Shown: in pieces, positions 36,779 to 40,957 of the stretch
How the letters are laid out: every line of letters starts with the position of its first letter
Position numbering within the stretch: position 1 is the stretch's first letter
DNA from: Halobaculum marinum
Lineage (GTDB): Archaea; Halobacteriota; Halobacteria; Halobacteriales; Haloferacaceae
Assembly: GCF_029338555.1 (NCBI RefSeq)
Contig: NZ_CP119989.1
Coordinates: forward strand, 2,356,001-2,420,000
Direction of reading: 5' to 3'
DNA length: 64,000 bases
Notes under the pieces: generated by a model
Told to the model about the DNA's origin: nothing
The model's input: only the letters and a program-made list of their open reading frames with translations
The model's database searches: none
Translations under genes and position numbers: made by a program

Positions 36779-37504
36779 ATGGCTACCGACACCACGACCG
36801 TCGAGCACGCCGACCGTTCCGGCCTCCCCGACGGCCTGTGGCGCGTCGACGGGCGCGCCTCGAACACGTTCCTCGTCGCCGACGGCGACGGGGACGACGC
36901 CGCGCTGTACCTCGTCGACGCCGGCGTGCCGGGCGACGCGGGCGCCATCCGCGCCGCCGTCTCGAACGCCGGCTACGACCTCGGCGACGTGGACGGCGTC
37001 CTCCTGACCCACTACGACTACGACCACGTGGGCTCGCTCGCCGAACTCCCCGAACTCGACTGCCCGGTGTACGCCGCCGAACCAGACGCCTCGTTCCTCG
37101 ACGGCACCGAGAAGCCCGGGCTGTGGCCCCACAAGGCGCTGCTCCAGCGCGTCCTCGGGGCGTTCCTCGACGACCCCGCCCTGCCGGTCGAGCGCGTCGC
37201 CGACGGCGACGCCGTCGGGAGCTTCACCGCCTACCACACGCCCGGGCACGGGCCGGGTCACCTCGCGTGGGTGAGCGAGGCGCGCGGCGTCGCGTTCCTC
37301 GGCGACCTGGTGCGCGAGGACGACGGCGCGCTGACGGCCTCCCCGTGGTACATCAGCTACGACGGGAGCGAGGTCCGCGACAGCGTCCGCTCCCTCGACG
37401 ACCGCGCGCCCGACTTCACGACCGCCTGCGTCGGCCACGGCGACCCGATATCGTCGGACGGGCGCGAGGCGCTCGCGTCGCTTGCGGCGTCGCTCCGAGA
37501 GTAG
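36779..37504 (+). CDS. Metallo-beta-lactamase-fold hydrolase
   Basis: The 241-residue protein has the MBL core: 'LYLVDAGVPGDAG', then 'LLTHYDYDHVGSLAEL', 'YHTPGHGPGHLAWV', 'VAFLGDLVRED' and a final 'VGHGDP'. The main metal motif reads H-Y-D-Y-D-H, so the second His of HxHxDH is Asp. This variant occurs in some family members, and the other ligands are intact, so activity is likely. Family substrates include thioesters and lactones. The specific one is unknown. It follows the flavoprotein gene by 75 bases on the same strand. Confidence 0.88.
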   Translation: MATDTTTVEHADRSGLPDGLWRVDGRASNTFLVADGDGDDAALYLVDAGVPGDAGAIRAAVSNAGYDLGDVDGVLLTHYDYDHVGSLAELPELDCPVYAAEPDASFLDGTEKPGLWPHKALLQRVLGAFLDDPALPVERVADGDAVGSFTAYHTPGHGPGHLAWVSEARGVAFLGDLVREDDGALTASPWYISYDGSEVRDSVRSLDDRAPDFTTACVGHGDPISSDGREALASLAASLRE

Positions 37505-37640
37505 CCGTCCACTTCCGCCGCCGCTGTCTGCGGCCAGACTGTCGTTCATAGCCGTTAGACGCCCCAATAGCGCTGTTCTCTCCGTCGTTCGTCGACCACT
37601 TTCACCGCGCACCCGTGGCTCGCGACTAAGGCCCGAACGC

Positions 37641-37652
37641 CCGATCGATCGG
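37641..37652. promoter_or_regulatory. Perfect 12-bp palindrome directly before the PolB cassette
   Basis: CCGATCGATCGG is a perfect inverted repeat that ends one base before the ATG at 37654. With a weak TATA-like GACTAAGG about 28 bases before the start, the palindrome would overlap the transcription start of a leaderless transcript. That makes it a candidate repressor site for the cassette. Confidence 0.45.
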
Positions 37653-37653
37653 T

Positions 37654-38379
37654 ATGCGCCGCGCGACCGACGACCGACCGACGCCGACCGACCTCCCCGA
37701 CCCGCAGTCGGGCGTCACCGTCTTGCACAGCGACCGCCCCCACGGCGCCGCGCTCGCGCGCCTGGCGACCGACTGGCTCGCGCGCGACCCCGGCCCGGCG
37801 TACTGGGTCGACGCCGGCGGCGCCGCCGACACGCGACGGCTGTACGACGCCGCGCCGACCCGCCGCGCGCTCGCCGGCCTCCGCGTCGCCCGCGCGTTCA
37901 CGGCGTACCAGCACGCCGAACTCGTCCGACGACTCCCGCGCCGTGCGCGCCCCGGAACCCGACTCGTCGTCGTCGCGAACGCCGCGCTCCCGTACCGCGA
38001 GGGCGACGCCCCGACCGACGAGGCCGGTCGACTCCGCGCCGCCGGCACCGCACTCCTCGACGAACTCGCGACCGCGCTCGACTGTCCGGTGCTCGTCTCC
38101 GTCGCCGGCGACGGCGACCACGCGGCGGCGGTCGTCGACGCCGCCGACCGGGTCGTCGAGTGCGAGACGACGCCGTTCGGCGTCCGCTTCGACGCGCCCG
38201 ACCACACGCCACGCGGCTACCGCGTCGCCGGCGGGTGGCAGACCACCATCCCGTACTGGGTCGACCTGTTCGGCGCGGTGGCCGACGCCGACGCGGGGGT
38301 CGCGACCCCTGCGGCGACGGCCGCGGCGGCGACGCCGGCGCCGCTCGACGCGACCGCCGGCGGCGACGGGGGCGCCTGA
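37654..38379 (+). CDS. RecA-like protein with no intact P-loop, first gene of the PolB cassette
   Basis: The 241-residue protein has the strand-helix pattern of a RecA/RadA core: 'GVTVLHSDRPHGAALARLATDWLA' where the Walker A loop should be, and 'GTRLVVVANAAL' where Walker B should be. Neither keeps the key residues (no GKT/S and no Walker B Asp), so ATP hydrolysis is unlikely. Inactive RecA-like partners are known next to archaeal PolB2 (Dpo2) genes and, in bacteria, ImuA next to error-prone polymerases. Its stop codon overlaps the next gene (TGATG). The assignment to the RecA fold is by pattern and context and should be checked by structure prediction. Confidence 0.65.
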   Translation: MRRATDDRPTPTDLPDPQSGVTVLHSDRPHGAALARLATDWLARDPGPAYWVDAGGAADTRRLYDAAPTRRALAGLRVARAFTAYQHAELVRRLPRRARPGTRLVVVANAALPYREGDAPTDEAGRLRAAGTALLDELATALDCPVLVSVAGDGDHAAAVVDAADRVVECETTPFGVRFDAPDHTPRGYRVAGGWQTTIPYWVDLFGAVADADAGVATPAATAAAATPAPLDATAGGDGGA

Positions 38380-38642
38380 TGGGGCGCACGACGCCGACGT
38401 ACCGGCGGTTCCTCGACTCGTACGAGTCCGACTGGAGCGACTTCCGTCGCGCGCTCCGGCGCGAGCGTCGGGCGGACTTCGACCGCCTGTTCGAGGGGGC
38501 GGCCGCCCACGCGCACGCCGCGGGCGTCCAGAACCCGCCCGACCCGCTGGAGGCCGTCTACCTCTCGATGCTGGTCGCCCACCGGGCGGAGCTCCGTCGA
38601 CTCCGCGAGCGCGTCGCGGCGCTGGAAGCCGACGACGCGTGA
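38379..38642 (+). CDS. Small charged helical protein of the PolB cassette
   Basis: The 87-residue protein is highly charged and predicted to be almost all helix. It has an Arg-rich stretch, 'RRALRRERRADFDRLFEGAAAHAHAAG', and a C-terminal heptad-like helix, 'HRAELRRLRERVAALEADDA', that could form a coiled coil. I do not recognise the family. Its ATG shares bases with the stop of the RecA-like gene, and its stop overlaps the GTG start of the polymerase. Tight coupling on both sides points to a fixed stoichiometric partner, perhaps an adaptor between the two. Confidence 0.75.
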   Translation: MGRTTPTYRRFLDSYESDWSDFRRALRRERRADFDRLFEGAAAHAHAAGVQNPPDPLEAVYLSMLVAHRAELRRLRERVAALEADDA

Positions 38643-40957
38643 CCCTCGCGGTCGAGTTCGTCGACGGCGACCCGGTCGTCTGGGAGCGACCCGCGGACTG
38701 GGACGGCGACTCCGGCGACGGCCCGCGCGCCGTCGCCCGCCGCGACCCCGACTACGAACCGGCGTTCCTCGTCGCCGGGCCGTCGCGCGCGCGGGCACGA
38801 CTCGCGGACTGGCTCGCCGGCGACGACCGCGTCACCGGCACCGACACCGTCCGCCGCTACCGCTCGCTGGGCGACCGCGACGGCGAGCGGTTCCTTCGCG
38901 TGCGGGTCCACGCTCCGGACGCCGTGCGGCCGGTCGCGCGCCGCGTGCGCCGGGGGTTCGAGCGCGCCCACCTGTCGCCCGGCGCGCTCCGCCTGTACGA
39001 CGTCGACCTCGACCCGACGGTGCGCTACTGCCTCGACACCGGGACGCCGCCGGTGCCCGCCGACGCTCCCGCCGGACTGTCGACGCTCCGGGTCGACCTC
39101 CCCGAGGACGCGCTGGCTGCGGGAGACGTGAGTACACTCCGGGTCGGCGGCGAGCGCGCCGCGCCCGTGCCGGGCCGCGGGGAGGAGGCCGCCGCGCTGG
39201 AGACCCTGCGCGAGGCGCTCGGTCGCGTCGACCCCGACGTACTCGTCGTGTCGAGCGCGGCCCTGCTCCCACTCGTGGCCGACCGCGCCGCCGACCTCGG
39301 CGTCTCGTTCTGCTGGGGGCGTCACCCGAATCGCGGCGTTCAGCAGGTCGCGGGCGCGAACAGCTACGAGAGCTACGGGCGGGTCGGCTTCTCCCCGGCG
39401 CGCTACGTCGTCCCCGGCCGAGCCGTCGTCGACCGCGCCGGCAGTTTCCTGTGGGGCGACGGCCGCCTGGAGGGACTGGTGTACCTCGCGCGCCGCTCGT
39501 GTCGCCCGCTCCAGGCCGCCGCGCGCGCGAGCATCGGCGGGGTGCTCACGTCGATGCAGGTGTACCACGCCCGCGGTCGCGGCGTCCACGCGCCGTGGCG
39601 ACCGTGGGCGCCCGAGCAGTTCAAGCCGCTGTCCACACTGCACGACGCCGACCGCGGCGGCGTCACGCTCTCGCCGCAGGTGGGCGTCCACGAGGACGTG
39701 GTCGAGGTGGACTTCGCCTCGCTGTACCCCGCGATCATCCGCGCGCACAACGTGAGCGGCGAGACGGTGCGGTGTGACTGCTGTGGACCGGACGACCCCG
39801 GCGTCACCGAGGTACCGGGGCTCGGCTACCGGGTGTGCGCCCGCGAGGGGTTCCTCCCCGGCGTGCTCGCGCCGCTCCTCGACGACCGCGCCGACGCCAA
39901 GACCGTCGCCGCCGGCGGCGACCCGGGCGTCGTCGGCGACGGCGAGGTGACGCCGACGGGCGCCGAACGCATCGCCGACGCGATCAAGTGGGTGCTCGTG
40001 TCGTGTTTCGGCTACCAGGGGTACCGGAACGCGAAGTTCGGTCGCATCGAGTGTCACGAGGCGATCAACGCGTACGCCCGCGAGGCACTGCTCGACGCGA
40101 AAGACGCCTTCGAGGCTGGCGGCTGGCGCACCGTCCACGCCATCGTCGACAGCGTGTGGGTGACACCCACCGGCGCCGCCACCGACGACGCCGCGGACCC
40201 GGTCCCGGCGCGCGACCTCGCGGCGACGGTGAGCGACGCGGTGGGCGTCCCGCTGGAGTTCGAGGCGCGCTACGACTGGGTGTGCTTCGTCCCGAAGCGC
40301 GACTCCCGAGCGGGCGCGCTCACCAAGTACTTCGGGCGTCGGGCGGACGGCGGCTACCGGGTCCGGGGGATCGAGTGTCGCCAACGGAGCACGACGACGT
40401 TCGTCGCCGACGCCCAGCGGGCGATGATCCGCGCGCTGTGCGGCGACGAGGGGGACGACGAGAGGGACGACGAGAGGAACGACGAGGCGGACGGCGACGA
40501 CGGGGTGGGTGACGGTGCAGCGGCGACCGAGTGCACCGACGGCGCTCTCATCGACGACCCCCCGGCGGCCGCCTGTCGCGTACTCGCGGGGCGACTGCGC
40601 GACCTCCGGGCGGGTCGCGTCGACCCGGCGGACCTGGTGATCCGGACGCGCGCGTCGAAGGACCCGGCGGCGTACGACCGCGACACCCTGACGGCCGCGG
40701 CGCTGGCGCGCTACGACCGTGCCGGCGTCGAGCGGTCGGCGGGGCAGGGCGTCACGTACGTCGTCACCGACGACGACGCCCGCGGCGCCGGGCGGGTCCG
40801 CCTCGCGTTCGAGGACCCGGCCGACTACGACACCGGCGTCTACCGCGAGCGTCTGGTTCGTGCGGCGCTGAGCGTCGTCTCGCCGTTCGGCTGGGACCGC
40901 GAGGACGTGGAGGCGTTCCTCGGCGACGGGCGAGACGCGCGGCTCTCGACGTTCTGA
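38639..40957 (+). CDS. Family-B DNA polymerase of PolB2/Dpo2 type with altered catalytic motif C
   Basis: The roughly 772-residue protein has a divergent N-terminal region without clear exonuclease motifs and a recognisable family-B polymerase domain. Motif A is intact, 'DFASLYPAII' with D358. Motif B is 'KWVLVSCFGYQGY' (K450), where the usual Asn-Ser is Val-Ser. Motif C reads 'HAIVDSVW' instead of YGDTDS: the first metal-binding Asp is Ile502, while D504 remains. This matches the disrupted-site PolB2 group, whose crenarchaeal member Dpo2 is linked to damage-induced mutagenesis. A CxC-C cluster ('RCDCCG') follows motif A, and an acidic insert lies near residues 605-635. The start is a GTG overlapping the preceding stop. 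Confidence 0.85.
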   Translation: MTLAVEFVDGDPVVWERPADWDGDSGDGPRAVARRDPDYEPAFLVAGPSRARARLADWLAGDDRVTGTDTVRRYRSLGDRDGERFLRVRVHAPDAVRPVARRVRRGFERAHLSPGALRLYDVDLDPTVRYCLDTGTPPVPADAPAGLSTLRVDLPEDALAAGDVSTLRVGGERAAPVPGRGEEAAALETLREALGRVDPDVLVVSSAALLPLVADRAADLGVSFCWGRHPNRGVQQVAGANSYESYGRVGFSPARYVVPGRAVVDRAGSFLWGDGRLEGLVYLARRSCRPLQAAARASIGGVLTSMQVYHARGRGVHAPWRPWAPEQFKPLSTLHDADRGGVTLSPQVGVHEDVVEVDFASLYPAIIRAHNVSGETVRCDCCGPDDPGVTEVPGLGYRVCAREGFLPGVLAPLLDDRADAKTVAAGGDPGVVGDGEVTPTGAERIADAIKWVLVSCFGYQGYRNAKFGRIECHEAINAYAREALLDAKDAFEAGGWRTVHAIVDSVWVTPTGAATDDAADPVPARDLAATVSDAVGVPLEFEARYDWVCFVPKRDSRAGALTKYFGRRADGGYRVRGIECRQRSTTTFVADAQRAMIRALCGDEGDDERDDERNDEADGDDGVGDGAAATECTDGALIDDPPAAACRVLAGRLRDLRAGRVDPADLVIRTRASKDPAAYDRDTLTAAALARYDRAGVERSAGQGVTYVVTDDDARGAGRVRLAFEDPADYDTGVYRERLVRAALSVVSPFGWDREDVEAFLGDGRDARLSTF

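Follow-up and report, generated by a model that had tools for sequence, protein, structure and literature searches.

A probable damage-induced PolB2 mutasome operon on the chromosome of Halobaculum marinum

The assembly of an inactive RadA-like protein (iRadA), the small protein PPB2 and the family-B DNA polymerase PolB2 has already been described by Makarova 2014 (PMC4104785) and Timinskas 2025 (PMC11791011). PPB2 (arCOG07300) accompanies PolB2 in archaea as well as bacteria (PMC4104785, PMC11791011) and bears an N-terminal MGRT signature with Arg3 and Arg9 (PMC11791011); its fold has been likened to the N-terminal domain of sigma factors in a published comparison, and published models depict a heteropentamer with a PPB2 trimer (PMC11791011). 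PolB2-type enzymes, formerly regarded as dead, have proved to be active and mutagenic in Sulfolobus islandicus (PMC11791011, PMC7390963, PMC8764526), and a clamp-binding motif is present in PolB2 or iRadA of some systems only (PMC11791011). Both Escherichia coli Pol V (UmuD'2C-RecA) and the bacterial ImuA-ImuB-DnaE2 system similarly join a polymerase to a RecA-fold partner and a small partner and function in induced mutagenesis; the PolB2 cassette is likened to them by analogy, as their polymerases and small subunits are non-homologous to those of the PolB2 cassette. In addition, UV-B arrays of Halobacterium NRC-1 placed the element TTTCACTTTCA approximately 50 nt before radA1 and other UV-induced genes (PMC2556686).

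We analysed a 64,000-nucleotide stretch of the H. marinum genome (the window), in which a sequence-only reading had noted three collinear, overlapping genes at 37654-40957, made as a unit and interpreted as a haloarchaeal mutasome. The genes were borne out with the coordinates as first noted (Table 1) and, as judged from the encoded proteins, the cassette is the PolB2 mutasome, i.e. a system that is already well described. We consider it highly probable that this chromosomal operon specifies a damage-induced, mutagenic translesion complex. The mutasome interpretation held with regard to a PolB2 with an iRadA partner in a shared gene order, but not with regard to the 87-residue protein, which had been put forward as a lineage-specific adaptor.

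Table 1. Features of the cassette in the window and of related loci
Feature	Position	Strand	Remarks
iRadA gene	37654..38379	+	241 aa, ATG start
PPB2 gene	38379..38642	+	87 aa, ATG start, N-terminus MGRTTPTYR
PolB2 gene	38639..40957	+	772 aa, GTG start
iRadA/PPB2 junction	38377-38381		TGATG stop/start overlap
PPB2/PolB2 junction	38639-38642		GTGA stop/start overlap
GACCACTTTCA, shortened TTTCACTTTCA (8/11 bases)	37594..37604	+	50-60 nt before iRadA ATG
GACTAAG, conserved TATA-like box	37624..37630	+	~25-30 nt before iRadA ATG
Candidate D(K/R) motif, Asp265-Arg266	39431..39436	+	D265 at least 90% conserved
Motif A catalytic Asp358 (DFASLYP), intact	39710..39712	+	invariant in 48 aligned sequences
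Motif C I502-V503-D504 replacing DxD	40142..40150	+	IVDS in nearly all relatives
DEDDh exonuclease genes of relatives	L043:2681-3325, L052:3450-4097, L048:8942-9598, L090:5732-6385, L039:10797-11441		overlap PPB2 stop in plasmid-type cassettes
UV-B motif sites upstream of iRadA in relatives	L080, L079, L098 and L120 promoters; L203:254-264

The first gene encodes iRadA, an inactive RadA/Rad51-core protein according to both profile comparison and structural modelling. A single-sequence search found no Pfam domain in the window iRadA, and just 38 of 54 relatives gave a Rad51 Pfam match; as Pfam alone missed this protein, profile and structural methods were needed. A profile of 54 homologues matched RAD51/RadA chains with an E-value of 5e-12, and the AlphaFold2 model (mean pLDDT 86) matched the ATPase cores of RadA, Dmc1 and Rad51 by Foldseek with an E-value of 6e-10, a probability of 1.00 and a TM-score of ~0.55. 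The homology of this 241-residue protein is limited to the RadA core, without the N-terminal domain. The Walker A motif was found in 0 of 120 iRadA homologues and the Walker B Asp position is Ala in the window protein (LVVVANAALPYR versus LLIVDS in RadA, as read from the profile alignment). The RecA-like core that had originally been suspected was upheld by profile and predicted fold alike.

The second gene product is, by its sequence, PPB2 of the arCOG07300 type, the usual small subunit of the PolB2 system. Residues Met1, Gly2, Arg3, Thr7 and Arg9 were invariant in 55 PPB2 homologues, and the protein was predicted to be all-helical (pLDDT 92), in keeping with the small helical protein expected. 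A Foldseek search with this model returned nothing significant, and the best VIA-align chain was a sigma-factor domain of sigma H, with a Z-score of 4.5 that lay barely above unrelated rows, a weak result that agrees with the published likeness without proving it. Given that gene 2 carries the MGRT/Arg9 signature and that arCOG07300 is spread through archaea and bacteria, a lineage-specific adaptor was ruled out.

The third gene encodes a PolB2 (Dpo2-type) family-B DNA polymerase, to judge from its matches to NCBIfam NF004418 (type B DNA-directed DNA polymerase; 729.8 bits, cut-off 692) and Pfam PF00136 (DNA_pol_B; E-value 9e-17). Pfam searching at E-values up to 1 found the polymerase domain alone and no exonuclease domain, and the exonuclease region appears to be dead, without an active site. 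Motif C reads IVDS in nearly all of the 142 haloarchaeal relatives, and thus the first catalytic Asp is now Ile and the second is kept; the PolB2 alignment shows no variation at the latter, at the motif A Asp or at the fingers Lys. The earlier description of a damaged active site is therefore literally correct for the change of DxD into IVD, but the same substitution occurs in Sulfolobus PolB2, which is an active polymerase (PMC11791011, PMC8764526). The D(K/R) motif, which is DK in S. islandicus, contacts PPB2 in published models (PMC11791011). The PolB2 C-termini mostly read LxxF/Y, with RLSTF in the window, a candidate for the clamp-binding motif.

The loss of both the catalytic DxD and the ATPase residues might also be accounted for by a regulatory or replication-initiation factor, in which an inactivated polymerase and an inactivated RadA would bind forks or origins, an idea raised by Makarova 2014 from the arORC2/Cdc6 neighbourhood (PMC4104785) and favoured also by the orc1/cdc6 genes that adjoin plasmid-type copies. 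We regard this as improbable, given that the Dpo2 of Sulfolobus shares this motif C and is an active, mutagenic enzyme (PMC7390963, PMC8764526), that three polymerase residues (motif A Asp, the second Asp of motif C and fingers Lys) have stayed invariant and that there was no orc gene among the immediate window neighbours examined.

Non-redundant haloarchaeal loci were pooled from two collections (L-numbers label loci and G-numbers genomes), and 115 of the 142 have the order iRadA-PPB2-PolB2 on the same strand. This survey of gene order around PolB2 agrees with the earlier statement that PolB2 lies beside inactive RecA-like genes elsewhere and, together with the overlaps, fits the single operon that had been suggested. 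The overlap between the iRadA stop and the PPB2 start was 1 nt in 33 loci and 14 nt in 43. Comparison with the nearest relatives gave dN/dS values of ~0.27-0.30 for each of the three genes (NG86), which are approximate because the method was applied to high-GC codons, and iRadA, PPB2 and PolB2 are thus under purifying selection of similar strength; from the conserved order in 115/142 relatives and these values we conclude that the three ORFs are real genes. PolB2, PPB2 and iRadA are each single-copy in the H. marinum genome (three contigs), which also encodes RadA and RadB-like proteins and contains one Y-family polymerase match, outside the operon; the replicative PolB is ~32 kb distant from the cassette. 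In a family sample of 99 genomes, PolB2 was present in 72, PPB2 in 66 and iRadA in 67. A metallo-beta-lactamase-fold gene lies at 36779-37504, between an upstream FAD-type gene and the cassette, and no counterpart of it was found at the equivalent place in L073 and L074.

A quick tree grouped the window copy with mainly chromosomal cassettes, in a clade that tracks host families, and a second clade of 32, with short branches across families, was mostly plasmid-borne. The chromosomal slot of the window cassette is the same in relatives of its own genus and in relatives of genus g16. As plasmids commonly carry related cassettes and one clade moves between families, the window copy could in principle be the relic of an integrated plasmid or mobile element without host function, an already disfavoured reading to which we attach a very low probability, since its own clade follows host families, its slot is also that of relatives from another genus, its three genes are intact and constrained and its promoter block is conserved.

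Solo PolB2 genes on plasmids were considered and rejected as a general class, because many proved to be split, with iRadA-PPB2 1.5-7 kb upstream or across a contig end; only some plasmid copies, e.g. that of NRC-1 pNRC200, appear without adjacent iRadA/PPB2. In the mobile cassettes L039, L043, L048, L052, L170 and L046, PPB2 and PolB2 are separated by 1.5-4 kb containing winged-helix-like small genes and possible transposon genes, and orc1/cdc6 often adjoins PolB2 in mobile cassettes. Several haloarchaeal genomes (G042, G067, G078, G093 and G098) contain 3-8 PolB2 matches, of which many, on secondary replicons, are fragmentary or interrupted by stop codons, suggesting turnover of mobile copies. 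The PolB2 of L151, labelled Clostridia, nests among haloarchaea and probably comes from a mis-binned contig, and L144, from a Nanohaloarchaeota MAG, is a diverged cassette with iRadA and PolB2 in which no PPB2 was detected. A viral or phage origin was also rejected, no PPB2 match being found in phages, nor in viral contigs by a search with one exact N-terminal pattern, which is insensitive.

Compared with the published PolB2 mutasome (PMC4104785, PMC11791011), the window cassette has the same three families, gene order and MGRT arm, and in addition the IxD motif C, the lost Walker residues and the dead exonuclease region. It is unlike the published system in that the haloarchaeal proteins have diverged and many of their promoters contain a radA-type UV-B element, in that some haloarchaeal relatives have a DEDDh exonuclease gene and in that the window iRadA ends in a low-complexity tail with no clear PCNA motif in its sequence. 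A PIP-like DPLxxWL is present in some iRadA tails (L078, L080 and the mobile clade), and this motif seems, from the sequence, to have been lost in the window iRadA. The S. islandicus Dpo2 operon (PMC7390963) has the same protein set, with motif C reading IID there and IVD here, and the link to Sulfolobus Dpo2 drawn at the outset held for the proteins and for the pattern of substitution; the work on damage-induced mutagenesis comes from Sulfolobus. The comparison with ImuA-ImuB-DnaE2 stood as a functional analogy only, not as homology, because the polymerase families differ. Equivalence to that system by descent, which the shared three-part layout of a RecA-like protein, a small or adaptor protein and an error-prone polymerase might suggest, has a negligible probability, as the polymerase is of family B and not C, the operon contains no Y-family domain or ImuB homologue and PPB2 is small and helical.

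Returning to the PolB2 mutasome as a damage-induced operon, the UV-B motif provides indirect, promoter-level support for such expression. The window promoter stretch 37500-37660 contains CACTTTCAC, and its form of the radA UV-B motif is CCACTTTCACC, 50-60 nt 5′ of the iRadA ATG; the window reads GACCACTTTCACCGCGCACCCGTGGCTCGCG (motif region noted at 37594-37621), and the L080 promoter reads GACCACTTTCACTTTCACCGCGCACCCATGGCTCGCG, i.e. the window block plus one extra CACTTT unit. The radA promoter of H. marinum has TTTCACTTCCA 52-62 nt before the radA ATG, where the first 11 bases of the stretch TTTCACTTCCACC lie. GACTAAG sits within an invariant block, GGCTCGCGACTAAG, common to the window, L073 and L074, and from its position would be a TATA box. 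Upstream of iRadA, TTTCACTTTCA was present at ≤1 mismatch in 22 of 118 cassettes, with a background of 0.11% of windows (250-nt windows taken from the same loci), a 177-fold enrichment, and at ≤2 mismatches in 35/118 (background 1.35%). It stands at a near-constant distance from the iRadA start, and downstream of it come a conserved TGGCTC block and the TATA-like box. By clade, the motif was found in 18/18 members of the Halorubrum/Halobaculum clade, 15/31 of the window's superclade and 0/17 of the mobile clade; the motif-bearing sequences are related, and the independent cases are therefore fewer, amounting to no less than two deep clades plus two single lineages. A reversed-motif control also scored high upstream of iRadA, owing to the repetitive make-up of the element (CACTTTCACTTTCAC), and permuted-motif and genomic-window controls gave no high scores. 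The cassettes resemble the UV-B regulon (PMC2556686) in motif, in its distance of ~50-60 nt and in the TATA-like box downstream, and differ in that PolB2 cassettes are unlisted there and the window copy is shortened. We found no report in the open-access literature linking the UV-B element to PolB2.

Related loci, not the window itself, and among them many cassettes of the plasmid type, encode a 215-residue RNase_H_2 protein (PF13482 match in 10/10 aligned members), in which D10, E12, D102, H181 and D185 are invariant and make up a complete DEDDh set. In six of the cassettes, the start of this exonuclease gene falls 4 nt inside the stop of PPB2. Among the 99 genomes, all 18 exonuclease proteins scoring >340 bits were within 3.4 kb of PPB2, the majority at a distance of 13-57 nt from its match, and 0 of 22 lower-scoring paralogues were near PPB2, a split that arises partly by construction because it was members adjacent to cassettes that went into the profile. 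In a tree, 14 cassette exonucleases formed one clade (support 100/99) that has so far been found only in cassettes, and the main text of PMC11791011 does not mention the exonuclease. We give an even chance to the wider proposal that the PolB2 mutasome belongs to the UV regulon of radA via TTTCACTTTCA and that its plasmid versions have a fourth part, a DEDDh 3′-5′ exonuclease translated in the PPB2 overlap, which would trim or proofread in trans for the exonuclease-dead polymerase.

Judged from Sulfolobus, the operon most likely serves translesion extension synthesis, inducible by UV and carried out by a complex of PolB2, iRadA and PPB2. The present analysis establishes the parts, their homology, arrangement and constraint and, in relatives, the promoter element; the formation of a complex is drawn from published modelling, and extension activity and mutagenesis are drawn from the Sulfolobus work. 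UV or other damage would turn the operon on, probably together with radA via the common promoter element, and iRadA, PPB2 and PolB2 would be co-translated into one complex, in which PolB2 may hold iRadA the way RadA protomers hold one another and the MGRT arm of PPB2 would occupy the PolB2-iRadA cleft, next to the DNA. PPB2 and iRadA would keep PolB2 on distorted primer ends, and PolB2 would extend these past lesions without proofreading, with mutations as the cost. Several points count against this explanation. H. volcanii polB2 is reported to be deletable (an unpublished remark, PMC7776575), and single loss of polB2 in Sulfolobus acidocaldarius had little UV phenotype (PMC7785828), so that the effect may differ in magnitude. 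In addition, the window motif matches just 8 of the 11 bases of TTTCACTTTCA, and the main text of the NRC-1 UV-B paper (PMC2556686) does not mention polB, yet the copy on pNRC200 is one without adjacent iRadA/PPB2.

The radA UV-B promoter link and the exonuclease-bearing variants go beyond the published main text, and the added value is modest. The cassettes place a system of damage-induced mutagenesis, studied until now in Sulfolobus, in haloarchaea that are amenable to genetics, on their chromosomes as well as their plasmids, and the promoter element in common ties the PolB2 system to radA. Two questions thereby become testable in Haloferax or Halobacterium, namely whether a genuine SOS-like mutagenic response exists in haloarchaea and which transcription factor reads TTTCACTTTCA. 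The exonuclease-linked variants pose the further question of how an error-prone, proofreading-less polymerase is restrained.
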